From contig NC_049986.1 in NCBI RefSeq assembly GCF_000003815.2, positions 11,196,699 through 11,260,698 on the forward strand: 64,000 nt of DNA, written 5' to 3'. A program made the position numbers and the translations under genes. Below the pieces are notes generated by a model. It ran no database searches. It worked only from the letters and a program-made list of their open reading frames with translations, and was not told the DNA's origin. This document shows, in pieces, positions 37,162 to 64,000 of this stretch. This DNA comes from Branchiostoma floridae (Eukaryota > Chordata > Leptocardii > Amphioxiformes > Branchiostomatidae). Each line of letters starts with the position of its first letter. Positions within the stretch are counted from its first letter, which is position 1.

Positions 37162-40100
37162 TTATTTCACATATTGAGCTTTGCCCGCTGTTTTGTCCAT
37201 GGCTAGCACGCTCAACAGCGCCTCCTTGTTGTCCTGCACCCACTGGTCCAGGCTCCTGGTGCCCGGGTACAGCTGGCGGGTCAGCTCGGCGCTACGGTCC
37301 GGGTTACCCAGGCGGTAGAACTTGAACATGTCGCCGAGGTGCTTCGCTCCCGGGAACGGCAGTTTGCCGAACGCGTCCGAGGTCATCTGTGAACATAAAG
37401 GATAGACAGGTTATAAGTTGTCTACAGCATACAGGTCGTGGATTGATCAATCTGTTCTGTGACCGTTACCTACCGTATATACTTTCATCACTTTTGGACA
37501 TGAAATCCACGGCCGTGGAAGTACTCAATGCTATTTTGGGCCGTGAAATTCTTATTCTTATCAACCTCACACAAGTTTTCCCCCGCTTACCTTGGTCGGC
37601 TTGAACACCTTCGGCGCCAGGTGCTTGGAGAGAATGTCTGCGTGTTGCTGGATGGTGATGTTGTCCGCACACAAGCCCACGGTCCGGCCCAGCCATTCCG
37701 CCCTGTTCTTGAAGATCCCCCTGATCGCAAAACCCGCGTCAGGAACACTGATGCCCTGCATAGGAGCGCCCTCCATCGCCCATCCTGTAAAATTACACCA
37801 AGTAACAAAAAGTCAGTTGTTGAAATGTTTTTGTTTAAAACTAATCATTGCACCTGATGTCACATACTATCACATTTCCAAACCGGGGCCCGACCGGGAT
37901 GTTTGTGAAAACAAAAAATAGAAATATAGTATACGTAAAAAATAAAAACAACGACTATTCTCTTTACGTTTTGTGTCACGGTTTGGTGTCATACTTTTCG
38001 TCCCCAAAAGCTGCCCGGCCGGGCCCCGGTTAGGTAATGTGACGTAGGCCTTAGCTGGAAGAGCTATTTACTGTACTGCAATTACACTAGCCATTCTATA
38101 TACATAAGACTGAATTCGTCGATCAAGGTTATGAAAGATCCGCAGCACAATTTTTTTGTCAAGAATGAGTGATATACCTAGCTCATACGTCCCATCCTCC
38201 AGTTGACGCGGCTTGAACACGGTGAGGTAGTTGTCGTAGTAGGCGGGAAACATGATGTAAGTGGCGGGTAGGTCGATAGACCTCATGTACTCCTCGATGT
38301 GCGCTTTGGTTTCGAAGTGCAGACACGGGAACCCCGCGGTCTTCTGGACGTCTTCGAGGCTGCTGAACACCACGTGTTGTACACCGGCAGCTTTTGCTGC
38401 ATCCGCCACAGCCTTTCCCTAGAGTAGATACAATTTGAACTAATTGGGCGAAATATCCGCGATATCATACGTAGTACTACGAACTAGATCAATAGAAGAC
38501 ACTCTTGGTATCATATATTTGCCGACTTCCGTCAATTTTTTTTCTGAGTGTAAAGTTTACTTCCGAACCAGTGGGAAATTATTTCTTTCTAGTCTAGTTC
38601 ACAAAAATGTTTAAAAAGCTTACCTGCTTTATTTCCAGTTGATCGAAGTCTGGGAGTTCAAAATACTGCTGGGTCATGATATAAGTACCGTATGCACCCT
38701 GGACAGGAGAAATATATGTTGCGATAAACTGCATGTTTGAGTACCAAGCCGCTTTCAAATCTTATCAAATATAAACCCAATGATAAACCTAAAAGTTTTA
38801 CCACCTGTGATTACGTTTAAGTTTTCGAAATGTCCAGCATAGTTACAGATGTAGGTTTTTTTTTTCTTCGGATGTGTTAATTTTCTTCTATCTTTTCTTA
38901 CTTCTTTCTTTTTATATTTCTGACATGAGAGTTCAATGAAAGCACCCATGCAAAACTTGTCTATGTTCGTATATACTTATTCTTGTAAATGGGATTCTAA
39001 GGAAATGACAATGTTAGAACTATACCACACAAATGCACAAGAAGAAACTGATTTTGTCAAGAACAATTGCGCATATTTGATTGCATGCTGAACATTTTGA
39101 CATGTTTACATTAATTACATGAATTCATAACTAAATTATGTTAATTTTGGCGACACCTCAGGGCAAGCCTAATGGTATAGTATTGCGTGCGAGTAGCATG
39201 ACAAAAGACAAATAACTGTGAGATAAACATCTTGTATGTTCCAGAAGGCTGACCTGCAATGCCCTCTCCAGTGAGCCGGGATCGTCATAACTGCCTTCAA
39301 CGACCTCAGCACCTCTCTCCTGCAGTGCCTTAGCCTTGGCGCTAGAGGCGCTCCTCGTCAATATCCGGACTTTGAAATCAGAATCTTCCAGAAGGGCATT
39401 GGCCACCCCGCCTCCTTGTGATCCTGTGTAGATAAGACAATGAAGGTGTATCAATCAGTTAATCGATATTGGGATATGTCATACCTGTCTGCTCTTGTTT
39501 CGATAGGAATCTGCACCATGCAGTGTTGTGATGTCTCAGCACTTATGAAATACAAAAAGAGGCATTTGCTTCGACATCGAGTTTAGCCCCCTTAGCACAT
39601 ATGTTGAAAGTGTACAAAGACAAATATTTAGATATTTACTTCCGCCCACTCCGTGATGTCCCGCAGTATTACACAACGTCCGGTTTAGTTTTGACATGGC
39701 TGCTTTGATCACCATGCACAAAATGTATACATGGTAATCTTGATCATATGGAGAGCATGTGAAATTGTTCCAGAGAGTTGGTATCAAACGTGATGCTGGA
39801 ACTCTAGCCAAATCATCTACAGGGATAACAATCTTCGGACTATTCTTGAGGATAGACTAGTACACACCGTCAGCAAAATACCAGCGGAGCTAGATTCGGA
39901 CTCGAGACAAAGAAACTGTCGCTGGTAACTTATCATAACTTGAGAAATGCTGTGTAGTTACGTTTATCATGAGGTCTATCATTATACAGTGCTTTGATTT
40001 CTACGAGGGTGAGTCAGAAAGTAATGCAAGTGGTTTCATAACAGAGTCGTTCTTTGATGGAATGAGTTGAAATTTGGCACAAAGGTTAAGACATATCTCC

Positions 40101-41718
40101 TTTTGAGGTTGAAATATCTAAATTTGTTGCTCATTATTTTATGAGTGACTGAGCTGCTTTCAAGGTGACCACACCCTTGGTATCCCGTCAGAAGAAAAGT
40201 GAGGTCCAATTAACGTACAATTAAGAATTTCCCTAAACCAATTTTTGCTATTGTAGGAGACACAGCCTGCACATGTAATAAGCTGCATTTTTCTATAAGC
40301 CACATGCTTAATTTCAACTCTGAAATCCGAGCAGTTTTTCTTTTTTCGTTGCTGGTATTGAGTGAGGCATAAGCGGTCGTCAGGGTCATGAGATCTGTAG
40401 CGTTTTGATTAAAACTGCCTGTAGCCTTCTTTCCCATTAACAAAGAGAAATGAAACTTAGCACACTTTTTGGACTTTAAACAGTTAATAACTGTGTAAAG
40501 TTTCGTTTCTTTTGATTAATGAAAAAGTAGTCTTTTTACCAACAACTCACGAATTCGCGTATAAATCCAACAGCTCTATAACACAACTTATCACATCCTA
40601 GCAGCTGTAAATATAGAACCATTACGAGTTTAGAGATGAAAATTGGCACGCAACCTATAGAGACATTTGGTATTATACATGTATAATTTCAACCTCCTAC
40701 AGTGATTTTCAGTGGGTCATATTTAGAGGAATTGATAGCCTGACAAGCTACCAAGGGTGTGTTCATCTTGAAATCAACTCAGTTGCTCAAAAAAATGATA
40801 AAGACCAAATCTGAAACATTCAATCTCAAGAAGACATATATCTCTACTTTTGTGCCAAATTTCAACTCAATTGATTAAAAATCGAGTCTGTTATGAAACC
40901 ACTTGCATTACTTTCTGACTCACCCTCGTACTTTGATGAACCCCAGGCCTCCAGTCCTGACTGGACCTCCAGACAAGCCAGAGAGAACCAAGACGACATG
41001 TGATGGATGGCCTGGCTGGTTGATGGATGAGTTTTGCACTCGGGGCGAGGCGTGTGACGCTCCACGGCGTAAACACCGTGCAAGACATATCCCGTAAATT
41101 CGCTGACGTAAGATTCTAAGATATGGAGACATCTCTGCTCGTCCACCACACACTCACACCATCTCTCTCCCTTTTGCCCACTCCGAACTCTCATGATCTC
41201 AACGTGTCCACTTCACAATACCCCCTGTCGCACAGTCGGCGAGCTTCGGTCGTATTTGCTGATCGCCAGAAAAATCACCACCGTTTTAAATCTGAAATAT
41301 TTACACTGGACGACTATAGTATGGGGGGCTGGGAGAGCAGTTAACCTTGGGACGACCGTGCATATTACGGCCAAAAATGTCATGATTTAACTATCTACCT
41401 TGCAGATTCGTCGGCCGCTCGCCTTTTCCTGCTGTGACTCACACAAACACTAAAACCTCCTTGCTATAAGTGTAAGAATACCTCAGTGGCTCTCCGTGGA
41501 AAACATAAGCACATTTCAAAGTAGATCAAGGCATTATGGAATTGGAGGGCCATACAGCAATCGGATTTCTGACCTCTAAGAAGATAACATAACAATTTCA
41601 CCAGTTCTAGTCGTTTTGTTAATTATTTTAATATGTAACTGATACTGCTTAACCATACGTAAAACGAAGGAGGATAAAACTCGCCTGTTGCTCCGAAAAC
41701 GGTGATGAGTTTCGCCAT
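37162..41718 (-). CDS. NMRAL1: NMRAL1-like NADP(H)-sensor protein, copy A
   Basis: Six exons in phase: 41685-41718, 39254-39423, 38624-38698, 38178-38418, 37591-37784 and 37162-37386; 312 aa. The N-terminal Rossmann motif VFGATGSQGGGVA spans the exon 1/2 junction at about residues 7-19, with the NADP-phosphate-contacting TRSAS further on, as in NmrA/HSCARG proteins. These are atypical SDRs that bind NADP(H) without a working catalytic triad; human NMRAL1 is a cytosolic redox sensor. Exon 3 reads ELPDFDQLEIKQ, typical of copies A-D. The C-terminal exon has FPGAKHLGDMFKFYRLGNPDR and is 10 residues longer than in its paralogues. Intron 1 has a GC donor (ACAG then GCGAGT). It is head to head with copy B. 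No break is seen, so probably functional. Confidence 0.92.
37862..38050. mobile_element. MITE with CACATTTCCAAACCGGG-type ends, in copy A intron 4
   Basis: TCACATTTCCAAACCGGGGC at the left is mirrored by GCCCCGGTTAGGTAATGTGA at the right. AATAGAAATATAGTATACG and CTATTCTCTTTACG lie between them. A second copy is at 62852-63058 in copy F, in a different intron, so the two insertions are independent. Confidence 0.75.
40002..40930. mobile_element. Mariner-like non-autonomous element with long inverted repeats
   Basis: The ends TACGAGGGTGAGTCAGAAAG and its inverse are near perfect for at least 45 bp. The arms continue with lower identity to about 40190 and from about 40740, including ACACCCTTGGTA on both sides. 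TA stands at each edge, the mariner target. The sequence CGAGGGTGAGTCA-AAAGT resembles mariner termini. No transposase ORF remains. It lies in intron 1 of copy A. Confidence 0.85.
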
Positions 41719-43711: not shown

Positions 43712-43805
43712 TCGCAAGGGTCTGGAGCGAGCTGCCATTCGGCGCCACTCAGGTGACCTCAATACGACTGTCGCAAGTGTCTGGAGCGAGCTGCCATTCG
43801 GCGCC
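43712..43805. repeat. 59-bp tandem repeat, second unit split by an element
   Basis: TCGCAAGGGTCTGGAGCGAG starts at 43712 and TCGCAAGTGTCTGGAGCGAG at 43771, a 59-bp period. The second unit stops at GGCGCC (43805) and resumes as ACTCAGGTGACCTC after 45410, showing that the element at 43806-45401 inserted into it. Confidence 0.9.
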
Positions 43806-45401
43806 GCAGATTTCCGTTTCGTAAACCGACGTTGCCTTCGAGAAGCGTCGTTGCCAAATTTTAGAACCCTCGTTGCCTTTTTAACCGACGATGCCATTTC
43901 CGAGCGACCGATCTTGAATTCCGAGTGCTCGCGGCATGTTCGTGAAGTTTCCGTAGCTTCTCGGGAAGTTTCTATAATTCATGAGGGCCAGATCTTGCTC
44001 CACTGTGGGAAGAAGATCAGTAAAGACCTTCTCAGTCGGACTGTAACTCTGTCTTCTACTTTGCTGAGGTGTACCGAAGCGTCACATGACGATATACGTA
44101 CACCATTTTGTGAGTAAATTTGGCCAGAGTGCCATGTAGATAGACTGGAGTCATTGGTTATGTAGGATTTTTCTCCGACTCTAACACTAACAGTAGAGGG
44201 GGGTGGACTGAAGTCACCGGATTGGAAATTGGTAAAGGTTACTGACCAATTCTGGACTGGATCAAGGAAGGGTTTGGGCACTTTGGAAGGAACTTTTAAG
44301 ATATTTCTGGGTTGCATCTAAGGTTAGGGATAGAACCTGATTTGTACCTCTTCCACCCTCACCACATTTTTTGGAACAGTCCATTATTGAAGGAGGGGCT
44401 GGTAACACAAACAAGCGGCAGGCATTGTCATTCACGTACGGTGTTAGTGGAGTTGGGAGTCAATAAGTCAGAGTCTGACAAACTGAATCACAACGTCACC
44501 AACACCTTTTTTTCAGTAGACGCTAGAGCATATAGCAGACAATAGCTGTTGTACTTGTAAATGTACTAGGCTCTTACGGTCAGGTCGATAATGTATGTAT
44601 GTATTTGACACTTCTCACATGCATGGCATTACATTGATGCACATGTGCGATCGCGACCTGATTCAAATGTCGGATTTACATACAGATGAAGTCTGGTAAC
44701 AAAAGAAATAAATTTGTGGACACTTTGCCCCTTCTTACACTAATTCACCCTTCATGTAGACATAAGAAGTAATAACTTTGATACAAGCGCTTAGAAATAA
44801 AGCACATCGATATCTTTAATAACATGATAATATAATATATTTATTGCAAACTCATGCCCGAAGGCTAATTGCAAAAATACATGTATGAAAGTACAATGAT
44901 GATAATGATATTGAATAGGGGTCATCAACTAGTGATACTTCTAATATTTCTTATGCATACTGTTGTATTGTCAGCATACCGATATCCCATATATAAATAT
45001 AATGCACTTTAACCCAGCCACTCCAACTAACATCTGTTTTGAATAAAGAACAGTATCCTGTACAACTGAAAGTCAAGACCTGCTTATTCCAGCCTCCCTT
45101 ACAGTACGTAACAGCACAACACATTTCTGTTCTTCCACAAGTTGCGAGAAAAGTAGAATAAGAAAAGGTTTGAGCGATGATAGAGAACCAGCGCCAGAGT
45201 CACATGCTTCGAGGGATGCAATTACCCACAATACTAAGAGTTCCGAGAATTAACGAAAATTTCACGAACATGCCACGAGCACTCGGAATTCACGATCGGT
45301 CGCTCGGAAATGGCATCGTCGGTTTAAAAGGCAACGAGGGTTCTAAAATTTGGCAACGACGCTTCTCGAAGGCAACGACGGTTTACGAAACGGAAATCTG
45401 C
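43806..45401. mobile_element. 1596-bp Mutator-like or foldback element with 161-bp inverted repeats
   Basis: The ends GCAGATTTCCGTTTCGTAAA and its inverse begin terminal repeats of about 161 bp (43806-43966 and 45241-45401) with few mismatches. A perfect 9-bp duplication TTCGGCGCC flanks it (43797-43805 and 45402-45410). The interior (1.27 kb) has no ORF over about 112 codons and no recognised transposase. Long inverted repeats plus a 9-bp duplication are characteristic of Mutator-like elements; it is probably non-autonomous. Confidence 0.88.
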
Positions 45402-45435
45402 TTCGGCGCCACTCAGGTGACCTCAATACGACAGT

Positions 45436-45700
45436 AATTGCCCCGGGTGCGGCCAAGGTACTGTAGGTTTTGAACCACTCGCACATGTGGCGGGTTCTTT
45501 AACGTGCCCGGGGTGTGGCTCTCCCCAGACACGGGACCTCCATTTAACGTCCTATCCGAGGGACGACTCATTTTCACCTGAGTAAAGTGAGGAAAGTCGT
45601 GTTAAGTGCCTTTCCCATGGGCACAAGATCGGTAGCACGGCAGGCACCTCTCGGTCACGAGGCGAACACAATACCACGGTGCTACGCGACCCCACCATCT
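45436..45700. repeat. Interspersed repeat with TTCTTTAACGTGCCCGGGG motif
   Basis: The stretch has the words GGGTTCTTTAACGTGC, ACACGGGACCTCCATTTAAC, GAGGGACGACTCATTTTCACC, AAGTGCCTTTCCCATGGGCACAAG and GTGCTACGCGACC. I recall very similar text as a high-copy repeat in many marine invertebrate genomes; that is memory, not a search. It lies in the copy B promoter region, 260 bp upstream of the start codon. Confidence 0.55.
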
Positions 45701-45959
45701 GTAGCTTGGACACAAAGCTCCAGTTACTGAGTATAAAAGGTGAACATACCGAGAAGAATAGCGCATGAACACCTGTTAGCACTCTATGCTGTGATTGGTC
45801 TTGGAGCTAATCTCTGGATTCGTGTCACTGATTATGTGGGTAACAGGGCGTTGGCTTCACCAGAAGACGCTTCATTCCGAAGGCAGCTAACATCAGTTGT
45901 TGTAAGGTCCGGTCCTTGTAGGAGTCTGAGTCTGAGTCAGGATTCAAAGGTCAAGAGGC

Positions 45960-48900
45960 ATGGCGAAAGTAATCACTGTTTTTGGAGCGACAGGTGAGTT
46001 TTCAAGTGATTTTTCAAACCACTTGTTTCTGGAAATTGCAAACAAACAATACCGGAACACTACTTTCTTTCTCTCGGCAGGCTCACCCTACAACAGCGCA
46101 GACAAGTAGTCCGTCTTTCACAATATGTAGCCTCTACCAGGCACGTGCACCGCGGATGGCTGGTTAAATCGGAGAAATTGGACTAATAGAAGGAATAGTA
46201 TGCTAGGGAAGTCGGCCGGTCAGAGAAGGCGCTATCCGCGGAGCCTGGCAGAGGCTAACAATGCATGTGTATAAAGCCGTCAATAACTAGATAGCCATCC
46301 CATCCACGATATTCTTACCAAAAACACCAACGTTACCAAAGGAAACTAGCAATGCTTCATCACATTCACCTGCAAGGCAGAAACAGGTAGAAGCCAAGAC
46401 AATAGGTAGAAGCCAAACACTTTTAAAATGGGCCTGCCAAGCACTATGGCTAATCCCAGCTACATCCAGCTGTAATCCAGTGTACCATTGTATATTGTCA
46501 CCACTATCTTTTTTCGTTCCTACGCAATACCTTTTTGCTAATTCGGTTGCACCACCGGAACCACAACCGGCCACACAAGAGTAAAGGTGGTATCTCATTG
46601 CACTTGGGGCACCGGTGCGGCACTACGGGGTTCGTTCACTGTGGGACTGTTGTGTTATTTTCGACATTTTTTAAAATATTTTTTTTATAATTTAGAACTT
46701 AGTTAGAAGACTACAAAATGCACAGAACGTAAGAAAATTCTTTGTTCATCTCTAAAATTCGTTGAGTAATCTTTCAAACCTCCCAGTGCCGAACCGGTGC
46801 CCCAAATGCAGTGAGATACCCATGCCGCAGGCGGGGCTTTGTCGAGTATTGTTTAGATGTAGCTGAAGGTTCATACTGGCTTTAGCTGGTAACCATACCA
46901 TCGTGTTATTACAGCTGGAAAGACAGGAGACAGAAAAGGGTCAAAATGCCCCTTATCCAGCCTGTTGTTGGTGTACCAGTGCGAATGTTCAGGTACAGGT
47001 ACGGTTCAGGTCCAGAGGATCAGGTTCCGGTCCGAACCTAATTGTCTGTGAAAACTTATGAATGGGCGATACGCAAAGCTATGGTCCATTTCGCTACTGA
47101 GGATTCTGCTTGGTGACTTCCACTGGCGTTTTAAAGTCCTAAAATTCGCTTCACTGATTCTTTTCAGGGCCGGACCGGTCCAACAATTTAAGGGAAAAAA
47201 ACGATTTTGTACAGGTACACCCACTTTACTGGCTTATGAAAAAGTTATATAATCTCCAAGCAAATGCGGTGGAAGACATACATGTATAATGTGAAATCAA
47301 AGTCCTATAGGTATGCGAAACCTACACATTCTTGGCTTACAGGGACACAGGGAGGTGGAGTGGCCAATGCCCTTCTGGAGGACCCAGAGTTCAAGGTGCG
47401 AGTAGTGACGAGGAGCGCCTCTAGCGACAAGGCTAAGGCACTGCAGAAGAGAGGTGCCGAGGTCGTTGAGGCCACTTTTGACGATCCCGCCTCACTGGAG
47501 CGGGCACTGAAGGTAAAAATGTCGACCTGGTACGACAGAAGTACTCCTAACTGAAACTTGATATCATTCCCCATAACTGATGAAACTTTGATTTGCCGTC
47601 CTATTACCCTCTCCAACTTTTAAACAATTATGAAGAAGACAAATGAGATGCAATACAAAGCGTTCTTTTCTTTCATTTCTGCCCAGGGCGCCCACGGAAC
47701 GTTTGTGATGTCTACCCAGACTTTCACTGAAGGTGTAGACTTTTATACTCTGGAGATCAAGCAGGTATGAGCCTTTGGTTGACACTTCACGGTCCGGTAG
47801 AAATACAATTATGTCATCAACATTAAAACATCTCATGGAGTATCTAAAGTCGCAAACTTGTAAAAGACTCTAATCTTCAGATTACGTTTTGTGGCCACAA
47901 AATCCGAACCAACACGTCCCATAAATTGTACAGAACCTGATAATAATCACAGGACTCACAGCCAGGATATAAATCTCTCTCCACAAAATTTCTCCAGTGT
48001 CAAAGACACGGGATGGTTGTTTGAAACTTCTGACCGTTTCCAAAATCACATCCGGTTGCTTGAGTAACTGCTTTTTGGCTTAATAGTATTTATCACTAGC
48101 GATAAAACGTGAACAAGACTCTTTACTATCACATGTTTATGTACGCACGTAGTTTCTCTTGATTTTGATTTGATTTTTACGAGTATCTTCTCCAAGGGTA
48201 AGGCGGCGGCGGATGCGGCCAAAGCTGCCGGTGTACAACACGTGGTGCTGAGCAGCCTGGATGCCGTAAAGAAGACCATGGGGTTCCCCTGTCCGATGTA
48301 CGACGCTAAAGCAGAGATAGAGGAGTACATGAAGTCTATCGGCCTGCCGCTTACGGCCATCAAGTTTCCCCCCTACTTCGACAACTACCTCTCCCTCAAA
48401 CTGATTACAAAACTGGAGGATGGGACTTTTGAAATAGGTACATGTATCTTGTATTATGATGCAGTATCATATCCTGGTATTCAAACCTATTGTAGCACCC
48501 CCACCCCCCCGAAGTCTCATGGATTTCCACAAAAAGCCCTGTTAGTTACAATAAATTACTATGTCGGATGTCATTTAGTTATTGACAACGCCGCAGTGAC
48601 GTAGCCTCCACCAGGCCTTACCGCGTATTGTGAAATTCGGCAGAAAATGGGATTAATTGGCCAGGGGCTTGAGTCTAGGTTAACGTGATTATAAAACTGT
48701 GTGAAAAATCCAGTATGGTGGCCAAACTCCCCAGGCAAACTATTTTTCATATACTGTATAGTATGTCCGGTAGACTAACCATGATTGTGTTCTGAATTCT
48801 TCAGGTTACTGCATGGAGGGCGTTGCCATGCACGGCATCAGTGTTCCTGACGCTGGTTTTGCCATCAGAGCGATCTTCAAGAACAAGGACGAGTGGCTGG

Positions 48901-49574
48901 GTAAGACTGTGGGCTTCAGCGGAGACAAACTCACCATCCAACAACAAGCAGACATTCTCTCTAAACACCTGACACCTTATGTGTTCAAACCTACCCAGGT
49001 AAGGAGAAAGAACGTACCAAGGACTAAAACAAGGTTTCAGTTATCAGAAGTTAGTATCATGGCGTGTCAAGTGTTAATTTTTCGAGCTCAGAAAGACAAC
49101 CACCCATTCATAACCCTGGACGCCAGACTACGACATAGCGGCTGCCAGGATTTACGCGAAATTTGGATCCAGCCGACTATAGATATAATTATCGGGGCAT
49201 GTCTAGCATGGCTAGGCCGTCCGGGTAAAGCCAAGTAGCGGCCGCGCGGTGCTCTGGCATCCAGGGTAGCCAGCAATTCACCGTACGTCTTCCGAAAATA
49301 CAGTGCATCCGAGGTCTGTGTGGATGTTTATCTATTTAATGTATCAATTCATCCCCACATCTATCCTTTGTGTTCACAGATGACATCGGACGCGTTCAGT
49401 CAACTGCCTTTCCCAGGAGCAAAGGACGTCGGTGACATGTTCAAGTTCTACCGCCTGGGTAACCCTGCCCATGACGTTGAGCTGACCCGCCAGTTGTACC
49501 CGGGCACCAGGAGCCTGGACCAGTGGGTGCAGGACAACAAGGAGACGCTGTTGAGCGCTTTAAAGAGCGCGTAG
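45960..49574 (+). CDS. NMRAL1: NMRAL1-like NADP(H)-sensor protein, copy B
   Basis: Six exons in phase: 45960-45993, 47343-47512, 47687-47764, 48197-48437, 48805-48998 and 49380-49574; 303 aa. Exon 1 encodes MAKVITVFGAT and exon 2 opens GTQGGGVANALLED, completing the GATGxQGG nucleotide-binding loop; VVTRSASSDKAKALQ follows. Exon 3 is 26 codons (TQTFTEGVDFYTLEIKQ), one more than in A and C. Exon 4 carries AAGVQHVVLSSLD and the EEYMKSIGLP helix; the last exon has FPGAKDVGDMFKFYRLGNP. The exon 4 acceptor is AAG rather than CAG or TAG. No catalytic YxxxK is apparent, as expected for NmrA-like sensors. It is first of a head-to-tail trio with C and D. An AATAAA lies at 49885. No break is seen. Confidence 0.92.
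46128..46257. mobile_element. 130-bp MITE with TAGCCTCTACCAGGC ends, copy B intron 1
   Basis: Left end TAGCCTCTACCAGGC and right end GCCTGGCAGAGGCTA are inverted, with CCGCGGAT/ATCCGCGG just inside. Related but incomplete words (TAGCCTCCACCAGGCC, GATTAATTGGCCAGGGG) occur at 12037 and 48602, and similar interior text at about 9080-9170 and 55982-56065. Confidence 0.8.
46589..46820. mobile_element. 232-bp MITE with GGTATCTCATTGCA-like ends, copy B intron 1
   Basis: GGTATCTCATTGCACTTGGG followed by GCACCGGTGCGGCAC is mirrored by GTGCCGAACCGGTGCCCC and GTGAGATACC. The core is AT-rich. No ORF. Confidence 0.8.
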
Positions 49575-50440: not shown

Positions 50441-52752
50441 ATGGCGAAAGTTATCGCTGTTTTCGGAGCGACTGGTGAGTTTTCTATTGATTCTTCACGC
50501 CATTCTGGCGTATGTAGTGCTGATACACATCCTAGATATACAATGAGAGTGCCAGGATCATTAGCAGCAACATAGCTTGATTGAATCAAAACTATTTATC
50601 CTGCGAAACCTAAATCTTCTGGCTCAACAGGATTACAGGGAGGCGGGGTGGCCAATGCCCTTCTGGAGGACTCTGACTTCAAAGTCCGAGTGGTGACGAG
50701 GAGCGCCTCCAGCGACAAGGCTAAGGCACTGCAGGAGAGAGGTGCTGAGGTCGTTGAGGCCAGTTTTGACGATCCTGGCTCACTGGAGCGGGCACTGCAG
50801 GTAAAAAGTCGGGAATTCGAAATGACATAAACAGTCAACATTTGAAAATTTATAGCATACAATGAAATATGCGCAATTGTTCTTAACAAAATGAATTTCT
50901 TCTTGTGCACTTTTGTGGTATACGAGTTGTAATATTGTCATTTCTAAGGAACGTTAGAACCACATTTACAAGAACAAGTATATACAAACATGAACAAGTT
51001 TTGCACGGTTGCTTTGATTGTCCCTCATTTCAGAAGGAGAAAAAGAAAGAGGAGGGCAAAGAAAGAAGAGGAACACAACAAAGAAAACAATATGTATGGT
51101 ATGACAAAAGTACTCCATGAATGGAACTTGATATCTTTCCTCATCACAGTTGAAATAAATGTGCTTTAAGTGGATTTTTTGTTGCTCCTTTCCCTTTTCT
51201 CTCGCCAGGGCGCCCACGGAACGTTCGTGATGACCCAGTATGCCATTGAACGCCCAGATTTCTACCAACTGGAGATTAAGCAGGTACAAGACTTGGTTGA
51301 CACAATTTTAAGCTCACATGATTTTGTTCACCACAGCCAAAGCATTCGGCAAATTGTACGCCCCTGTGGTCTTGTCATCATACTGTTGTACTTGACGTCT
51401 ACTCTATTACTTCAAAATATAACGAAAGCATGATTTACAGAACTGCCTGGAGAACTAACTGTATGCCGGTGCGCCACGCTCCCTAAGGAGCATGCGGAGC
51501 TGAGTGCGTGAGTATGACCCCATCCCCACCCCAAAGTTCATGCTTTATTCGTAGCAATACAAAATTACAACTGAACGAGACTCTTTGTTATCACATATTT
51601 ACATATGGTCTTCGAATTTTCTAATCCTAGGGTAAGGCTGTGGCGGATGCGGCAAAAGCAGCCGGTGTGCAACACGTGGTGTTCAGCAGCCTGGATGCCG
51701 TCCAGAAGACCATGGGGTTCCCCTGTCTGCTCTACGACTCGAAGGCACACGTCGAGGAGTACATGAAGTCTATCGGCCTGCCGGTCACCATTGTGAAGTA
51801 CCCCCTCTACTACGAGAGCTACCTTTCACTCCGCCTTGTGAAGAAACTGAAAGATGAGACCTATAAAATAGGTTTGTAGGAGTTCTAATTGTTGTCCATT
51901 TCAAGCCCCCGACGTTTGTAGACAAACTCTTTCTGACATCCAAGGCTACATAAGTCTAAGAACCCTGTGTACTGCTATGCAAGAAATTGAAGAGGTGACT
52001 TTATGATCTATATATATGATACAAATCCATGACACGTATACAGAAGAAGACCAAGAATGTATGCATATGTTGGTGACTTTCAGTCCTTCGATATATTCCC
52101 ATTGTCTAAAATGACCGGTTTTGTTGCGTAGAGAGCCACGCCACGTGAGTTGTACTTACCATGTCAGGTATATATCCCGCTATAGTTAGTAGAAACGGAA
52201 CAGTGACTATTGTTTGCCTTGTACTGAATTCTCCAGGTTACGCCATAGAAGGCGCTGCAATACACGGTGTCAGCGTTACTGACATGGGATTTGCCCTCAG
52301 AGAGATCTTCAAGAACAAGGACGAGTGGCTGGGCCGGACTGTCGGCTTCAGCGGAGACAAACTCACCATCCAGCAACACGCGGACATTCTCTCCAAGCAC
52401 CTGGCACCGAACCTTTTCAAACCGACCAAGGTAAGCGGGGGTAAACGTACTAAAGTTTAATGTTTGCCACTGTAGCATACGTATGTGTGCATGCATTCAT
52501 GTTAATGGCTCCAAAGCATCAATTATACCATCCGTTTATCCTTAATGTTCACAGATGACGGTGGACGAGTTCAGCAACCTGCCGTTCCAAGGAGCGAAGC
52601 ACTTCGGCGACATGTTCAAGTTTTGGCGCCTGGGTAACCCCGACCATGACGCTGAGCTGACCCGCCAGCTGTACCCGGGCACCAGGAGCTTCGACCAGTG
52701 GGTGCAGGACAACAAGGGGGCGCTGTTGAGCGCTATGGCAAACAAAATGTAG
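50441..52752 (+). CDS. NMRAL1: NMRAL1-like NADP(H)-sensor protein, copy C
   Basis: Six exons in phase: 50441-50474, 50631-50800, 51209-51283, 51631-51871, 52237-52430 and 52555-52752; 303 aa. The first residues MAKVIAVFGATGLQGGGVA form the Rossmann nucleotide loop. Exon 3 is 25 codons (MTQYAIERPDFYQLEIKQ), exon 4 has GVQHVVFSSLDAVQKTMGF, exon 5 has EWLGRTVGFSGDKLTIQQ, and the last exon FPFQGAKHF-type text is here NLPFQGAKHFGDMFKFWRL. Exon sizes and phases match copies A and B exactly except the last exon. Intron 1 is only 156 bp. Closest in layout to B, with which it shares 3' flanking sequence; poly(A) hexamer at 53125. It appears intact. Confidence 0.92.
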
Positions 52753-53577: not shown

Positions 53578-54301
53578 ATGGCGGATGTTATCACTGTTTT
53601 CGGAGCGACAGGTGACCTTTCACATTATTTTCAAACCATACTATGTAATCTTCAAGCTGCCACACATGCATGTACGTGTTCATATTAAATGGTAGCTCTC
53701 TGATCAGAAGCAGTCACGTAGCCTGATTGAATCAAAGCTATTTGTATGGTCTGACAGGGACACAAGGAGGTGGAGTGGCCAATGCTCTTCTAGGGCAACT
53801 AGAGTTCAAGGTCCGTATAGTGACGAGAAGCGCCTCTAGCGACAAGGCTAAGGCATTGCAGGAGAGAGGTGCTGAGGTCGTTGAGGCCACTTTTGACGAT
53901 CCCGGCTCACTGGGGCGGGCAGTGCAGGTAGGGCTGTCTACCTGGCACTGTGAAAGTACTAGCTACGTCGACGCTGGAACTTAACATCGTTCATCGTCAG
54001 CGTTGAAATATATATTCACAAATTAGATTTTGAAGTCGTTTCTTTTCTGGCGATTGAAAGTGTCCTCTGTTTATGATGATACAGTGTTTATTTCTCTCGC
54101 CAGGGCGCCCATGGAACTTTCGTGATGACCACGAATTTATTTGAACTTCCAGACTTCGATTTATTTGAACTTCCAGACTTCGGACAACAAGGGGGCGCTC
54201 TTGGACGCGCTCTCAAACTGCACAGTGCAACATTGAACAGAGTGTCCTCCAAGCAGAGGTTGGGTCGGGGTAGAGTAGTGGCCAGGCCGCGAGATTTCTA
54301 A
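53578..54301 (+). pseudogene. NMRAL1: NMRAL1-like copy D, truncated by an exon 3 to exon 6 deletion
   Basis: Exons 1 (53578-53611, MADVITVFGAT) and 2 (53758-53927) are intact, the same sizes as in the paralogues. Exon 3 starts normally at 54104 (GAHGTFVMTTN) but after a 24-bp perfect tandem duplication (54135-54158 and 54159-54182) it runs into GACAACAAGGGGGCGCTC at 54183, which is the end of exon 6 in the other copies. Exons 4, 5 and most of 6 are missing. The exon 6 remnant is out of frame, and reading through stops at 54299-54301 after about 133 residues. The 3' flank still matches copies B and C (GAGAATTCTCATCAACGCTC at about 54397). The substrate domain is absent, so it is a pseudogene unless a truncated Rossmann-half protein is used. 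Confidence 0.88.
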
Positions 54302-54992: not shown

Positions 54993-55204
54993 CTAGTCCA
55001 GGGATTTTTGCAGCACCTCCTTGTTCTCTGCCACCCACGTGTCGAAGCTCTTGGCGGCGGGGTGTAGCTGGCGGGTCAGCTCCACACTACGGTCAGGGTT
55101 GTGAAGTCGGTAGAACTTGAACATGTTTCCGAGGTCGTCAGCTCCTGGGAAACGTAGCTGGGCAAACGCCTCAGCTGTCATCTAGGAGACAATACACACG
55201 AGAG

Positions 55205-55460
55205 GGGGGATTTAGTCACTACTGACGTACGATATAGAATGCTACATGGAAAGCAAAAAATGCTCAGTTCCCATCTCATTTTTGGCGACACCTCAAGGAC
55301 GGAGCCAGTAGTACATTGTTCTGTTTGACAGTAACAACCACTTCCATTTAGTCAATACTGACATGCGATATAGAATGCTACATGGACAGCAAAATGAGCT
55401 AAGTCCTATATCTCATTTTTGGCGACGCATTGTTCTGTAAGCCAGTAACAACCACTTCCA
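55205..55460. repeat. Imperfect tandem duplication in copy E intron 5
   Basis: TTTAGTCA-TACTGAC, CGATATAGAATGCTACATGG, CTCATTTTTGGCGAC, CATTGTTCTGT and AGTAACAACCACTTCCATC occur twice in the same order (from about 55211 and 55348). The word TTTTTGGCGACACCTCAGGG also occurs at 62776 in the matching intron of copy F and at 39147 in copy A. Confidence 0.8.
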
Positions 55461-57066
55461 TCATCAGGTAACTGACTGGTGCCTACGACAGTTGAATGAT
55501 CTAGTACTACAACAGACTTACGTCGCTGGCCTTGAACACCTTCGGTGCCAGGTGCTTGGAGAGAATGTCTGCAGTCTGCTGGATGGTGATTCTGTCACCG
55601 CTGAAGCCCACAGCCTTGCGGATCCACTGAGCCCTGTTCTTGAAGATCGTCCGAACTGCAGGACCCATGTCTGCTGCACTGACGATGTCCATTGCAGCGC
55701 CCTCCATCGGGACTCCTAGAGAATTACAGTGTGTCAATTGATTGAAGGGGTATGCATGGGGTATGCCTGATAAACGAAATAGCAACTTTGGAGTGACATT
55801 ACGTATTTACTACAACAATGACGGCTACCAATTTTACCAGCCCACCCTTAGCAATACAAAGATATTTATGCTTGACATTTCGCTCATCATCAGACAGTGC
55901 GGTGTAGCAGAAAGTGGTCAAAATCAACCGCTCTGTTGGAAACCCTGTGACAATAAAGATATCAATACAAGTAAGTACCCAATGGCCTCGACCAGACCTT
56001 TGTACGAGGGTATATGATCGTAGAATTTGGCAAAAGGGGAAATAATTGACCAGGAGGGAGTCCGCACCAGGAAGAATACCCTTTCTTTTCGAAGGTCACA
56101 AGCTGCACTCCTCTGAATGGCAAGTTATCTGGCCAATTTATTTTTGCAGCGGCCAATGGAGTCTCGTAGAGACTACTTACCCAAAACGTATGTTCCGTCC
56201 TTCTGTTTTTGTGGCTTTAGAGAAGAGATGTAGTTCTCATAGAAGGAGGAGTATCTGACGAATGTCACTGGCAGTTCTATGGACGTCATGTACTCCTCTA
56301 TCTGCCCCTTGGCGTCGAAGTGAGGACAGGGAAACCCCGCGATCTTCTGAACATTCTCCAGGCCGCTAAACACCACATGGAGAACCCCGGCAGCTTTGGC
56401 GGCGTCCGCTATGGCCTTGCCCTACGTTTGATGTGAAAATGTGGAAATGTAGTTACTCGCGATTCAGCTAGCAAATCAGAGAAAGAAAAACTAGAAACAA
56501 CAGAGGACAATTACGAATAAAATACTGAGGGGCCAGATTTTTGCTGAGCTACTTTTTTTTCAGAAAGGGTAATGTTTGGCTACAGTGTGGTAAATCGTAT
56601 TTTGAGCTACACAGGGAAGAACAGTCGTTAAACATACTTGTTTGATTTCCCTCTCCTGGTCCATATGTTCCCAATAGTTGGTCAACACAAACACTCCGTG
56701 TGCGTCCTGTAGGGGAAACAAACACATGACGTCCATTACAATGGGCCATTTTTGCTGTATTTCACTTTTCACTATCCGACGTTACGACTCACGAGATACA
56801 ACCATTCCCTCGGCTTTGTCTTGATCGTCACTGGAAGCTATACCGGATACAAGAGATTAGGCCAATCACCAAGAAGAGATTATATAATAAGCTGCATGAC
56901 ATAACGAAATCAATTTTTCTAGTACCAAACTGCAGTTTTGAGACGGTTCACCTGCAGGGCAGGTCCCAGCGTGCTTGGATCGTCCAGACTTGCCGTAACC
57001 ACCTCGGCACCTTTCGCTTGCAGTGCCTTAGCTTTGTCGCTAGAGGCGTTTCTCGTTACAGCTCGG

Positions 57067-59640
57067 ACTTTAAAGACTAGGAGAAATAGGATCGATTTTT
57101 TAATTTTTGCAAACTTTTTTAACGATCTAGAGGATCATTTCCTCGCTATTAGATTGAGATATTTTTCATGTGATAATTTGGTCGGAAAGTTATGTTAAAA
57201 CGTCTTTAAAAAGTGCGATTTGGGGCATCCGAGGGCGAATTCAAATGATATGCATGACGTCATTTTAGAGAGTCGCGTTCTTGTAGTAGCTCTACCCCTG
57301 TCCGCTGTAATGGCGTCTTGTACTACCGGTCGTGTTAGTACAAAGTCCAGTGGACGTTATTGTGTCGCAGGAGGCCCACATGGCGTTAGCTGTAAGAATA
57401 GTCAGTCTACCGAGGGGATATCTATGCACAGATTCCCCAAAGTTAAAAATGACAGAACTGCGGCTGACAAATTGAGAGTCTCAGCGAGCTAGAAAACAGT
57501 GTACAAAATTATGTATCAAGTTTGTTCAGAGGCATGGTTCCTTCCGCGACATCTACGGCTCCGCACACTTCGAGCTCCGCACACTTCGAGCCCTCGTACT
57601 TCAACATGAACCTTGAGATTATATTGGGGAGAGCTGTGGGAGGACCAGAAGGATTATCGCAGGAAAAGTTCCAACTATTGACACCGCTGGTCTGCCGACT
57701 CCCAGTCACGGAACGCGCGCGGAGAAGGGTGAATTCGCCACTGTTTATCACAGCTGCAGGACGTTTATCTGTCACATACTAGTAGTAATTCACCCTGTAA
57801 ATTTACCTTGTATTTCGCTTGTTCTGGTCATAACTGTGTTGCCATTATTGTGAAGTACTTGTACGCTTTGACTCCGACACAAAACAGCACAAATGATTCT
57901 TGGATTTTACATCTTTGTCGGCGTCCGGATAGATTTCATAACAAAGTGAACCGCTTATACCGAACTCGTAACAACAATGATGCCGACGCTGTCCCAAGAT
58001 TTTCAAGCACGAAAATTTGCTGACCGTATTCAAAATACGTTGGAAAAATAGTCACTAGATTTTGTCATGAGTATTGTAGTTTTTGGTCTCCGTAAAACCA
58101 AGTTACGAGCGAATCTGGGATTTTTCGTCGTCGACAACAACAACTCTAAGAAAAATGGCCCCAAAAAAGATGGCGGCCGTGCGCTAAAAACCTCAGAGAC
58201 TTTTCGAATTTTCTTTCACGGAAACACCAGTCTGTATGTTTTTCCTCGAATCACTAGGAGCTTACGAAATCTGTGTGTTGTTTAGTGTCTTAGCGGTGGA
58301 CATGCTGTTGATAGATGAGTTAAAGTAGTTTGGTTTTGTATAAAAACTTCTAGCGTAACCTGAGCATGTAAACAAAGGAAAATATATCGAGGTTGCGGGA
58401 CCACAAGCATGTACGTACTCGTTACTATGTCATCGATAACTCGTTTTTTTTTGCTCGTGTAGCTACAAACTTGGCACTTTTGTCGCTAGATTTTGCCATG
58501 AATATTGTAGCATTTATATGTAGTACTGATATGGTCTCCGTAAAACCTAGTTACGAGTGAATCTTGGATTTTTCGTCGTCAACAACAAAGAAAAATTCCT
58601 CACAAAAAAATGGCGGTCCCGTGCCATGCGCTATTATTTAACCACACTTTTCGAATTTTCTATCACGGAAACACCAGTCTGTGTGTTTTCCTCGAATCAA
58701 TAGGAGCTTACAAAATCTGTCTGTTGTGCAGACAAATATGAGACAGAAAGAACAGTCACTCTCAAAATGTTTCACGGACTCGTCACAATCTGGAGGCGTT
58801 TAGCTAGCTATCGGCCGTGCTCACGACTAGAAATAGTCAGTCTACGACGTAACATCTATCCGATAAAAGCTTACAGGTTTGTAAACAAACACATACTTTG
58901 AGTGGGAATGTATTTTGAATCGCATTTCTTGTGGCAATGAGGTTGCTTCTCATTTTAAATCCTGGCGAACTGTACGTAGTTAGTTGCTCAGCTGTTGTAT
59001 ATTTGTACGCGACCGAAGCTTTAGTCCCGGTTTCGCTAGCAGACACAAGCTGAGACCGCAAAGAGGCACAAATTTCTGCGCTTCCGCTAGAAAACATCTT
59101 CAAATTAATGTACAGCATGGCCTCCTTACTGAGGATAATGTAAGCTAATGCTATCATTTGTGTATAGAAGAAGCGATGACTGTTTGTCCCCGCTTATTCC
59201 ACACGCTACAATAATGAACTTTCTCCCCGCTTGCGTTACGCACGCTTGGTACGTGCATCAACTTCAAGTGCCTCTAAGATATATTTCAGTGGCGTGAATA
59301 CGAACGAAATTCTCTTCAAGTGAAGTGAAGTATGTGTTCTTTAGTCGTGCCGAGTTTCGTCAATGAATTATGTTTCCTTTATAAGATACGGGTCTATCAA
59401 ATGTATATTATTCCCCTAGTCAACCATACCAGCTAGTAGGGACTAACTAAAATGACGTCACGGCATGTTCCTAATTAGTTCCAGCAAAGAGCTCAAAGTA
59501 CACATTTTTATGTCGCTGTTTGAGGGACTTCCGGACGGACAATTGATTTGAAACTTGCATTGACTTTTTCAGAAAAGATCAAATTTTTACATTATTGGTA
59601 GAAAATGCTACAGACGATTTCATTTCAGTTACACTTTAAA
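57067..59640. mobile_element. 2558-bp insertion (57075-59632) with 8-bp target duplication in copy E exon 2
   Basis: ACTTTAAA flanks the insert on both sides (57067-57074 and 59633-59640). Removing the insert and one flank copy restores exon 2 to 170 bp, the size in every paralogue. The ends share weak inverted similarity (GAAATAGGATCG against GAAATGAAATCG). An 8-bp duplication points to a hAT-type element; because the repeat contains TTAA, a TTAA-targeting family is also possible. It contains a tandem duplication of about 450 bp but no recognised transposase, so it is likely non-autonomous. Confidence 0.88.
58040..58740. repeat. Tandem duplication, period about 450 bp, inside the insertion
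   Basis: Text at about 58045-58285 recurs at about 58485-58735: GTCACTAGATTTTGTCATGA, GGTCTCCGTAAAACC, GGATTTTTCGTCGTC, TTTTCGAATTTTCT, CACGGAAACACCAGTCTGT and CTTACGAAATCTGT, in the same order with scattered changes. Each unit has an ATGGCGG word after an A-rich run (58167 and 58608). Confidence 0.85.
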
Positions 59641-59687
59641 ATCCTGGTCTTCAAGAAGGGCGTTGGCGACAGCCCCTCCCTGTGTTC

Positions 59688-61270
59688 CTGTAAGATTAAC
59701 ATGCTTTTATGTGTTCTTAAAGATACCAATATGATGAGTAAGCAAGCGACCTCTCAGCAAAGGACAACACAAAATGACAACACCATAGTCGAGAGTAATG
59801 CAGTATTTTTTAAATTTAATTTACATCAAAGGTTTTGCTTATTTCAACCAGTGATTTTAGTTCTTCTGAATATACCGATAGTGGGCACTAGCGACATCTA
59901 TGATGTTGGATCTTCAAAAAACGCCTGTTAGAAGCAGGTCTTTGACTATTTGCATAACGCACTTGCCTCGATATACGAAAGGTTGATAGGACGGTGGCTT
60001 TGTCAGCGGTCATGTTATCCGCATCCACGTGCAACTTACCAAACAGACCACGGATGAATGATGAACAATCACGGTGACCTAAAAACCTCACAGTAAAATG
60101 TTTTCTTTTAGTCCTATTCTAGACCTATGGTAAATACTTGCCAATCACTGCGGGGACATCAGACTATGAGGACAATGCTCCTGGATAGTTTGTAGACACA
60201 TTGAGCAGATTTTGGAATGTACTTACATTTCAAAGTCTGCTCAAACACGCATAACAAGTAACCAACATAATGCTGCTAATACTGCTTAACATTTCCATAC
60301 TACCATTCTCATCAGACACAGTGCAAAGAAAATGCAATGACTGACATGATATTGGTCGACCCAGAAGTGCTATGTGTTTTGTCTGGACTCCTGTGTCAAA
60401 TATTGTTCTGATAAGTAATGGGTGGATGTCAAAGTGAATGTCGACTTAGACAGATCTGGTCTCCCCTAAGTGTACATCTGGTGGGGGTAGTCAAATAATG
60501 GATTACCCCAGGCTCTTTTCAACCTCCTTTCACAGGCCAAAAGGCTATCATTTTGTGGGACTGCCTGTATAGTTGTGAGATTGCCAATAAGTTTAAACAA
60601 CAGAATCTTTTTCCCCTGATATATCGAAGCTTTTGCTTATTTTTTTCCACCTTTAATTTAGACTAGAGTAGTCGCTTACTATACTGTTTTAGTCTGTTTT
60701 TTTCTTTTGTCACCTGCAATTAGCCCTTGGGCAACAGTTTGCAATAAACTTATTATCATCCATGCATAGGCGGTGCCAAATTGTCAGAAATTCAGATCTC
60801 AAACAGATAAAACGTTAGCTTAGAATAGCTACATTGCTTTAGAGGATTGTACAATCATTCAATATAATAGCAAGGCGAACGCAAGCTATTTCATGCTGCA
60901 AACGTTCTTTCAAAGCAAGCAATAGAAAACTTAACACCGAAATCAAAGCTTCTGAGTTGCCCACACCTGTCACTAGTGCTGTTCTCATCGAGTTCAGCCT
61001 CAGGCTGTTGCTCTATGATTTGCCCGGCATGTGACTCCTTGTCTGTCTCAATGGCTAGCGAGGCGATGCCTAAAAATGAACAGCTTCTGAACGCAGCAAT
61101 CGTCAAGACGCAAAACGCTAACCGAGTAACAGACTGGTGAGTAGAGAAGCCTTGAACGGCATGCAACAGGGCCCGTTAAACGTCCTCTCGGTCGTTTTCA
61201 TAGCCGGCACACATGTACATATAACATGAGTAGTTTTATACACGTCTTCTCAGAGACATTTCAGACTCAC
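59688..61270. other. Copy E intron 1
   Basis: Non-coding as far as I can see. The frame 60891-61166 (-) has no family resemblance. Confidence 0.5.
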
Positions 61271-61304
61271 CTGTTGCTCCAAAAACAGTGATAAGTTTCG
61301 CCAT

Positions 61305-62508
61305 ATTGCTGGAAGTCTGTCAGTGTTGTCGCTCCTTGTTGAATGAGGCTAAAGGAAAGCTGGGTGGTCCTGCGTCGCTCTTCCTGCCCTCTCGGTAGCC
61401 CCTGACAAGTTAAATGTCGTTTGAATGACGTGACCTATTTTATACAAACGTACCCCGGTGGCATGGGATGTTCCATTGCACGAATGGGTAGGGCAGTCAG
61501 CAATGCAAACAAATATGCAAGTCATGCAGTATCACTATGGGACGGTAGTCATGCTGTTGCATGGAGAGTATGCAAATGAACAGTCTACTGCAGCATTAGC
61601 GTCGTATGCAAGTCATGATTGACTTTTGTGCCGCTATTTTCTGATGAAAAACGATTTTGACATATTTGTACCGAATAATTCTAATGAAATAATAGTTGAA
61701 ATACCTCGAACATTGCCATCTTAAAACGCAAACTTAAGTTTCGCGGTCTATCTTAAGACACCTTCATCTGGCCTTAATCACTTCATCATCTTGATCACTT
61801 TGATTATCGAGAGAGGCAGTCAATGTTTTTATTATCTCAGCCCACTTTATTCCGTATTGTTAAGTTGCTTGTATAGTCATTTTTTTTTTGTTTCTTATTC
61901 CGCCTGAAGCAGTTCCTTGATGCACAATTTTTTTTATCAATATTAGTCATAGCATATATCATCGATTCTCTTATCAAGAAATTTAAACCGAAAACAAAGA
62001 GTTTCTGTACATATTCTTGACCATGAACCATATCCATTTCACATATCACAAGCTCCATTCTCTGCCACATACTATCCTTGTGTACCTTTATACAATCTCC
62101 GGGTTCCTGACTTTCTGCCACATGCCAACCTTCACTTTTGTAAGCCTGCCGAAGAAATTTGTACGCAGGCCAGCTCAACCATCACTTCCTGCCAGTCTCT
62201 GCTTACAACTCAGTCCGGAACAAACTTGGACCCGGGCCAGCGAAAAAAAAAACTTGAAAAGACACCAATACAAACAAGCAAACAGGCCGAAAACAATATC
62301 TCGGAGGTAATGATGCAATCCATGTACTTATGCATACCCAAGGCGATCTACATATATATGAAAATACAGAACGAATGTACTATATTATATCTGTATCTTT
62401 ATAGATATGTAGACTGTGTGCATGAACAAGTTTAGAAAATAAAAACAACCGTGAAGACGTCTTCAGATGTATGACGAGTTATTGGCAATGTCTGAACTGA
62501 GACACTAG
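61305..62508. other. Spacer between copies E and F
   Basis: Contains the putative promoter of copy E (minus strand, from 61305 upwards) and the 3' flank of copy F. GTGAAGACGTCTTCAGA at 62451 also occurs, as ACGAAGACGTCTTCAGACGC, at 54960 downstream of copy E, showing shared 3' flanks of E and F. No exon found. Confidence 0.6.
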
Positions 62509-64000
62509 CTAGTCTAGTGCCTTTAGCAGCGCCTCCTTGTTCTCTGCCACCCACGTGTCGAAGCTCTTGGCGGCGGGGTGTAGCTGGCGGGTCAGCTCCA
62601 CACTCCGGTCAGGGTTGTGAAGTCTGTTGAACTTGAACATGTTTCCGAGGTGGTCGGCACCAGGGAAACCCAGTTGGGCAAACGCGTCAGCTGTCATCTA
62701 GGAGACAGTGCATAGGTTAGAAGTGGAAATAGTCACATTTTGCATAGGCAATAAAGAGCTTACTCTCCATAATTTTTTTGGCGACACCTCAGGGACGTAA
62801 CTATATCTGCATAGTCGGTATAACCGCCCTTTCGCGTATTAACACAACAGCTTAGGCTAACGTCACATTTCCAAAACCGGGACCAGGCCGAGCTGTCTGT
62901 GGAAACGAAAAAAATAGAAATGTATACGTAAAAATATACGGAAGTGATGCCCACGGCTATTCTCTTTCCGTCTTGTGTAGTCTTGTGTCTTCTATATCAT
63001 ACATTTCGTTCCCGTAGGAGGCCCGACAGGGCCCTGGTTTGGAAATGTGTCGTAGGCCTTGTAATTAAGCCGGAGCCAGAAGTACCTTGTTTGGTTTGAC
63101 ATGATAATAAATACTGCTCGCATTGAATGACTGATGAGTTACCTTTGACAGTTAATTGATCTAACATTACTACTACAACATACTTACATCGCTGGCCTTG
63201 AACACCTTCGGTGCAAGGTGTTTGGAAAGAATCTCCGCATGTTGCTGGATGGTGAGTCTGTCTCCGCTGAAGCCCACAGTCCGGCCCAGCCATTCCGCCC
63301 TGTTGTTGAAGATCGCCCGGACAGCAGGACCCATGTCTGCTGCACTGACCGCGTCCATTTCAGCTCCCTCCATCGGGACTCCTATCAACCACGGATATGT
63401 AAAGATTGATTAATGACTGAATATACATTTTGTATACTCTATAAATCAACATTGGAGTGGCATTACAACAATCGTTTCCATCCGTTTAAAAATTGATCCC
63501 TTCATTTCATTATATCTAAGGTTGAATTTGCAAGCCTCCTTGGCAGGGTTATGGATTGACCTTTTTTCTTGGCTTCCTGGTTGTATTGTATGTATATTGT
63601 ATAAGTTGCTATAACCCAGTGATAATGAATATCAATACCAAACACCAGAGCCTCCTTACCCAAAACGTACGTCACATCTTCCAGTTTCTGTGGCTTTAGA
63701 GAAGAGATGTAGTTCTCATAGTAGAAGGGGTATCTGACAAAGGTCATCGGCAGTTCTATGGAAGTCATGTACTCCTCTACCTGCCCCTTGGCGTCAAAGT
63801 GAGGACAGGGAAACCCCGCGATCTTCTGAACATTCTCCAGGCCGCTAAACACCACATGTTTCACACCGGCAGCTTTGGCGGCGTCGGCTATGGCCTTGCC
63901 CTTCGATGGATATCAACGCAAAATGACAATATTTATAGCAAGGTCTTTGCCTATGGCCAATTGCAGTACGTTACAGTGGGTAGGGAAAGTATACAGATAG
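62509..64000 (-). CDS. NMRAL1: NMRAL1-like NADP(H)-sensor protein, copy F (3' half; 5' exons beyond the window)
   Basis: Three exons are visible: 63660-63900 (exon 4), 63188-63381 (exon 5) and 62509-62697 (exon 6, 62 codons plus stop). Phases and sizes equal those of copy E, and the protein text is nearly the same: VVFSGLENVQKIAGFPCPHF, EEYMTSIELPMTF, VPMEGAEMDAVSAADMG, EWLGRTVGFSGDRLTIQQ and FPGADHLGNMFKFNRLHNPD. The exon 4 acceptor is AAG (CGAAG before GGCAAGG). No break is seen in these exons. Exons 1-3 should lie right of 64000. With E it forms a minus-strand tandem pair of the vertebrate-like type. Confidence 0.9.
62852..63058. mobile_element. MITE with CACATTTCCAAAACCGGG ends, copy F intron 5
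   Basis: GTCACATTTCCAAAACCGGG is mirrored by CCCTGGTTTGGAAATGTGTC. The interior (AATAGAAATGTATACGTAAA, GGCTATTCTCTTTCCGTC) matches the copy at 37862-38050. It is absent from the same intron of copy E, so it entered after the E/F duplication. Confidence 0.8.

Follow-up and report, generated by a model that had tools for sequence, protein, structure and literature searches.

A probable lineage-specific tandem cluster of NMRAL1 (HSCARG) co-orthologues with two sequence classes in Branchiostoma floridae

Introduction

Which genes in a row of NMRAL1-like copies in amphioxus are related to human NMRAL1, and how many of them could serve as redox sensors? Three reports (PMC3602244, PMC3999155, PMC11642932) describe human NMRAL1 as a sensor of NADPH with a Rossmann fold. 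The protein dimerises asymmetrically, occurs mostly as a monomer free of NADPH at a lowered NADPH/NADP ratio, and exerts effects on argininosuccinate synthetase as well as on NF-kappaB and RIG-I-like receptor signalling. An initial annotation of a 64,000-nucleotide stretch of Branchiostoma floridae DNA (the window) proposed six NMRAL1-like copies, A to F, with a common exon plan and an old split into an NMRAL1-type class (E and F) and a lineage-specific class (A to D). Our literature search returned nothing joining NMRAL1 or NmrA-like proteins with amphioxus or Branchiostoma, and NMRAL1 was absent among the best 12 of 1,620 papers matching a search on paralogues and expansion.

Results

Analysis of the 64-kb window by tblastn using eight exon queries revealed 34 matches at E<=1e-3, which collapsed to 29 separate exon stretches. 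All of these lie inside six loci at 37.2-63.9 kb, between position 37162 and the window end (Table 1), and no other exon remnant was detected elsewhere in the window with these queries at this threshold. Exon 1 of C (E 0.001) and exon 1 of D (E 0.002) narrowly missed the cut-off and were placed from splice sites and reading frame. The Pfam NmrA domain (PF05368) was found above its curated cut-off in 6/6 pieces (E 4.5e-54 to 3.5e-19), and together with the tblastn loci this upheld the six-member cluster. The top solved-structure match for copy A was human NMRAL1 (E 1.4e-69), with the next family at 3.5e-30. NCBIfam was searched with proteins A and E; A gave one match far under the cut-off and E gave none. 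No tRNA and no Rfam family at gathering score were identified in the window.

Table 1. Positions in the window of the six NMRAL1-like copies and associated features
Feature	Span	Strand	Exons or parts	Description
Copy A	37162..41718	-	41718-41685, 39423-39254, 38698-38624, 38418-38178, 37784-37591, 37386-37162 (incl. stop)	six exons, 312 aa
Copy B	45960..49574	+	45960-45993, 47343-47512, 47687-47764, 48197-48437, 48805-48998, 49380-49574	six exons, 303 aa
Copy C	50441..52752	+	50441-50474, 50631-50800, 51209-51283, 51631-51871, 52237-52430, 52555-52752	six exons, 303 aa
Copy D	53578..54301	+	53578-53611, 53758-53927, truncated exon 3 from 54104	truncated
Perfect 24-base tandem duplication	54135..54182	+		at the D junction
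Exon-6-end match in D	54182-54203	+		truncated exon 3 runs into it
Copy E	54993..61304	-	exon 1 61304-61271; exon 2 as 59687-59632 + 57074-56952; exons 3-6 56706-56638, 56421-56181, 55715-55522, 55181-54993	exon 2 split
Insert in exon 2 of E	57067..59632	-		about 2.56 kb
Copy F	62509..63900	-	63900-63660, 63381-63188, 62697-62509	exons 4-6 only

Copies A, B and C are complete genes. Exons 1-5 measure 34/170/75/241/194 in A and C; B differs in exon 3, with 34/170/78/241/194. A last exon follows in each, and the phases are 1,0,0,1,0 in all three copies. Their internal splice sites all have an AG acceptor and a GT donor, with the exception of the exon-1 donor of A, which is GC. The common exon plan had been extended to all six copies; it holds for A, B and C, for exons 3-5 of E and for exons 4-5 of F, but not for D, which is missing exons 4-5 and most of exon 6, nor for the split exon 2 of E. 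F contributes its last three exons, and its exons 1-3 would fall past the window end.

Copy D begins with open, in-frame exons 1 and 2 and a normal start of exon 3, after which a 24-base unit occurs twice. The 22 bases after the duplicated unit agree at 21/22 positions with the final part of exon 6 in C, and farther on there is a 67-base match to the 3' flank of C (79%) and a 39-base match to the 3' flank of B (87%). Past the junction the frame shifts and stops at 54301, giving 133 residues. We infer a deletion that runs from within exon 3 almost to the end of exon 6, and D is a probable deletion pseudogene.

Apart from the insert in exon 2, copy E is open to its stop codon, with a downstream piece of 271 aa. 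The sequence TTTAAAGT, which has TTAA within it, flanks the insert at both borders; TTAA as the target and an 8-base duplication of another type are equally possible. With TTAA as the target, 14/24 positions at the ends of the insert pair, compared with 6.1 ± 2.1 in 2000 random pairs; this value is the best among three boundary choices and the maximum of the random pairs was likewise 14, which leaves the inverted ends no more than suggestive. The insert contains a 259-base internal repeat (75%), and the six ORFs scanned of 14 that are at least 60 aa long gave no Pfam match at E<=0.01, to a transposase or otherwise. As a TTAA-type DNA transposon it would at best be non-autonomous. In our reading a non-autonomous mobile element inserted here recently; the insert could also be present in one allele only, or be an assembly error. 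Three in-frame GT-AG joins across the insert were identified in the stretch scanned, and each alters the protein. D and E both look damaged, which makes at least two copies out of six; on present sequence this would cut the number of candidates and weakens the proposal of several redox-sensor paralogues at this locus.

The two sequence classes of the initial annotation were recovered, with support of 100/99 for A-C and 85/79 for E-F in the tree described below, and with D placed alongside A-C by exon 2 (last 123 bases; dS 0.18-0.25 to A-C and 0.96 to E). Over exons 4-6, dS was 0.45-0.47 within A-C and 0.32 for E-F, compared with 0.91-1.17 between the classes. Pairwise dN/dS over the same exons was 0.21-0.39 in the ten pairs (0.22 for E-F), a range in keeping with purifying selection.

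Not all of the motifs proposed to mark the classes do so. SGLENVQKIAG, VPMEG and GADxLGNMFKF are present in E and F, as annotated. The TNYWE-type exon 3 given for both was found in E; exon 3 of F lies outside the window, so this motif is visible in E alone. Among the motifs assigned to A-D, LYPGTRSxDQW is present in A, B and C but not in D, where exon 6 is mostly gone. LPDFDxLEIKQ is whole in A only; B has GVDFYTLEIKQ, C has RPDFYQLEIKQ, and D has LPDFDLFEL and then runs out of register. SSLxxVQKT is present in A and C, but B has SSLDAVKKT and D is without exon 4. LTIQQ is not a marker of A-D, as it is found in B, C and F, with ITIQQ in A and E.

In the exon-3 loop that aligns with human Y81, A reads TQQYFE, B STQTFTE, C TQYAIE and E TNYWE. 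A TN(Y/F)W loop with the Y81 equivalent is present in E, compared with QQYF in A, QYAI in C and QTFT in B. TNYWE has disappeared from A-C, and residues were added ahead of EIKQ in a different way in each copy; A retains Y81 and the following aromatic residue and C retains Y81, so the loss is not uniform. A T-x-(F/Y)-W loop was identified in 5/9 bacterial rows of the alignment, and these are the five closest (TNFWE, TNFWE, TSFWD, TNFWA and TPYWE); the four more distant rows are without the TxFW loop (QTFRG, QTFLK, QDF and QDF). Because the five closest rows carry it, the loop motif is probably older than animals and kept by E, and because the TNYWE of E resembles their loops, the A-C loop is probably a derived state; the ancestral status of the TxFW loop rests on these five of nine rows. 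We also considered positive selection on exon 3; this was unsupported, with pN below pS in 3/3 A-C pairs across the whole exon and in the loop alone.

Elsewhere in the protein, GATGxQGG (family motif GxTGxQGG) is present in A, B, C, D and the upstream piece of E. The same five copies also retain the counterpart of human R37, an arginine; in F both sites would fall past the window end. Human K41 and K42 are not conserved. At 64 columns human agrees with most of the five closest bacterial rows and A, B, C, E and F are all represented; the human residue is found at 39 of them in A, 37 in B, 32 in C, 41 in E and 42 in F. Structure alignments revealed alanine at R37 and Y81 in the solved chains 3dxf and 3e5m, substitutions which we take to have been intended to weaken NADP(H) binding. 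No paper tying HSCARG to either residue was found for Y81 or R37 mutants among the matches listed, subscription literature being outside the scope of the search, and structural terms were absent from PMC4690889 on a term search.

The tree combined five window copies (A, B, C, F and the downstream piece of E, with D left out) with human NMRAL1 and nine bacterial rows. The bacterial rows came from plasmid records, of which 156 matched and nine were chosen by score and variety among the matches listed; a degenerate scan of genome contigs gave 307 pattern matches and no bacterial relatives by tblastn. The window copies formed one clade (99/98), with human as their sister (98/98) relative to the nine bacterial rows. 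This places human outside all window copies and argues against E and F as the NMRAL1 type by descent. In the AU test, a grouping of human with E and F had p = 0.0141 with all columns, p = 0.0333 without exon 3 and p = 0.0613 without exon 5 (not rejected at 0.05). The corresponding grouping of human with A, B and C had p = 0.0081 with all columns and p = 0.0367 without exon 5. Removal of exon 5 from the tree left the window clade at 94/94, while the branch uniting human with the window copies was no longer recovered at 80 and the E-F pair was lost. Human is the sole other animal sequence in this tree, on a branch of 0.66, and the long outgroup branches may pull it outward. With one other animal sequence and the result obtained without exon 5, the rejection of a grouping of human with E and F is therefore moderate.

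Identity to human was 124/286 for A, 118/286 for B, 114/286 for C, 115/261 for E and 84/197 for F. Overall these values barely differ, and E and F are not closer to NMRAL1 than A-C as had been proposed, an outcome that the initial annotation itself had named as speaking against its split; they are somewhat nearer in exon 4 alone, where F has 40/80 and E 37/80 compared with 31-32/80 for A-C. These comparisons do not support the view that, within the cluster, human NMRAL1 is kin to E and F alone.

Exon 5 also differed from the other exons in its divergence between the classes, with a between-class dS of 0.53-0.78 compared with 0.83-2.67 in exons 2b, 4 and 6. The longest run of common variable sites fell in exon 5 in 6/6 between-class pairs; the permutation P values, uncorrected for ten pairs, were 0.0014 (A-F), 0.0016 (C-E), 0.0118 (B-F), 0.0256 (C-F), 0.095 (A-E) and 0.0996 (B-E). 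Within a class, A-B had a run in exon 6 (P = 0.0094). When third positions alone were used, just C-E (P = 0.0048) was under 0.05. Gene conversion between the classes in exon 5 is likely but not proven from these patterns, with codon constraint as the alternative; either would account for the occurrence of LTIQQ in both classes.

Discussion

The reading that we prefer, at a probability of about 0.7, is a lineage-specific tandem cluster of NMRAL1 (HSCARG) co-orthologues under birth and death, in which the two classes seem to have arisen through local copying. A single ancestral gene, whose TN(Y/F)W loop resembled that of the closest bacterial relatives, would have duplicated after the split from the human lineage. 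One daughter line, E and F, would have remained close to the ancestral form; in the other, represented by A-C and the D remnant, the exon-3 loop at human Y81 would have been remodelled by the gain of residues and the loss of TNYWE, and this line would then have multiplied by further copying. A deletion would have removed exons 4-5 and most of exon 6 of D, exon 2 of E would have received a mobile-element-like insert, and the classes may have exchanged stretches of exon 5. The intact copies are predicted to bind NADP(H) via the glycine-rich motif and the R37-equivalent arginine, and to respond to a change in the NADPH/NADP ratio, as reported for human NMRAL1, by altering both dimer state and partner binding. 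The altered A-C loop would shift cofactor affinity or the dimer switch. A further step, in which A-C form a new NADP(H) sensor subtype, graded sensors with differing NADPH thresholds or partners, and E and F keep the ancestral setting, is a tentative suggestion with the odds well against it.

Under the rival view of an old split, E and F would be the NMRAL1 orthologues proper, and A-D would belong to another ancient class with no surviving counterpart in vertebrates. This would explain the TNYWE loop and short exon 3 of E and the exon-4 identities of E and F to human, and gene conversion between the classes could mask such a split. Once exon 5 is removed, the p-AU of 0.061 does not reject it. 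The best tree has human outside the window copies, however, with p-AU of 0.014 for this grouping (0.033 without exon 3), the loop motif was probably inherited rather than shared-derived, and overall identity to human is nearly equal among the copies; we consider an old split unlikely. Somewhat less probable still is that D and E look damaged merely because of the assembly or of a single haplotype, all copies being intact in the species. The E-F dN/dS and the otherwise open frame of E suggest a recent event, but a target-site-like duplication borders the insert, as expected of a true insertion, and the D junction has both its perfect 24-base duplication and an alignable 3' flank.

A cluster of lineage-specific co-orthologues, some of them damaged, also has to be weighed against one in which all six copies are working redox-sensor paralogues, the insert in E being spliced as a new intron and the short D protein being useful. 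Copy E is otherwise open through its 271-aa downstream piece, in-frame GT-AG combinations across the insert were found in the stretch scanned, and D retains its 133-aa frame. Every such splice of E, however, changes or adds residues by the second strand of the Rossmann fold, the splice sites appear weak by eye (unscored), and the C-terminal half is absent from D, which makes working copies throughout very improbable.

Comparison with known systems places the cluster nearest to human NMRAL1/HSCARG (PDB 2exx, 2wm3, 2wmd, 3dxf and 3e5m), with which the window copies have in common the NmrA Rossmann fold, the glycine-rich motif, the R37 equivalent, the (E/V)KQGK stretch and full-length alignment at 40-44% identity. 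They differ in that human lies outside the cluster, the exon-3 loop of A-C is longer and without TNYWE, and K41/K42 are not kept. The bacterial NmrA/HSCARG proteins (e.g. plasmid copies from Kitasatospora, Streptomyces and Sandaracinus) have a family annotation in 7/9 records, with two unannotated, and a mean identity to the window copies of 30.7-34.1%. They resemble the window copies in the T-x-(F/Y)-W loop of the five closest rows, which carry an extra segment near human position 118; the four more distant rows do not have the loop. Bovine NMRAL2 is described in PMC11640032 as an NMRAL1 paralogue without 11 residues at functional sites that acts unlike NMRAL1; this mammalian gene is likened to the window copies by that description alone.

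Taken together, the cluster is mainly an ordinary case of gene birth and death, plus one remodelled loop, and it warns that ancestral motifs that persist may be mistaken for orthology. In mammals, NMRAL1 connects innate immunity and nitric-oxide signalling to the level of NADPH, and natural variants at the cofactor-side loop would allow asking which residues set the NADPH response.

Inverted-repeat elements at copies A and B

Analysis of the NMRAL1-like copies revealed two elements with inverted ends. Copy A, a six-exon gene, carries one of them in its first intron; this element is inverted at 30/30 of its terminal bases (CGAGGGTGAGTCAGAAAG...), has arms of 139 bases (81%) and is flanked by TA at either end; we take it to be mariner-like. 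The element between copies A and B is presumably Mutator-like, with long inverted repeats of 166 bases (93%), terminal bases that pair at 29/30 and a 9-base duplication, TTCGGCGCC. A Pfam scan of one ORF from each element gave no match. The exon-1 donor of copy A is GC rather than GT (41684-41683). The insertion that splits exon 2 of copy E holds one segment twice (58051-58281 and 58482-58727; 75% identity over 259 aligned bases).

Features in the window
Feature	Position	Strand	Context or match
925-bp element	40004-40928		Intron 1 of copy A; inverted ends, flanking TA
1596-bp element	43806-45401		Between A and B; long inverted repeats
Possible Rieske oxygenase piece	9535-9834	-	KshA_C, under cut-off
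Possible Rieske oxygenase piece	11790-11867	-	Rieske domain
Possible Rieske oxygenase piece	13898-14371	-	
Short-chain dehydrogenase exon	16258-16605	+	Solved structure

Oxygenase and dehydrogenase matches

An assembly gap of 203 consecutive N lies at 6228-6430. The short-chain dehydrogenase exon had human estradiol 17-beta-dehydrogenase 8 (HSD17B8) as its top solved-structure match (E 7e-20). The Rieske domain match was narrowly above that domain's cut-off (E 0.0004) and the KshA_C match was under its own (E 0.002); comparison of the KshA_C piece with solved structures and a Pfam search of the third piece gave no match. The three minus-strand pieces may be parts of one Rieske oxygenase, which we assume to be Neverland/DAF-36-like.
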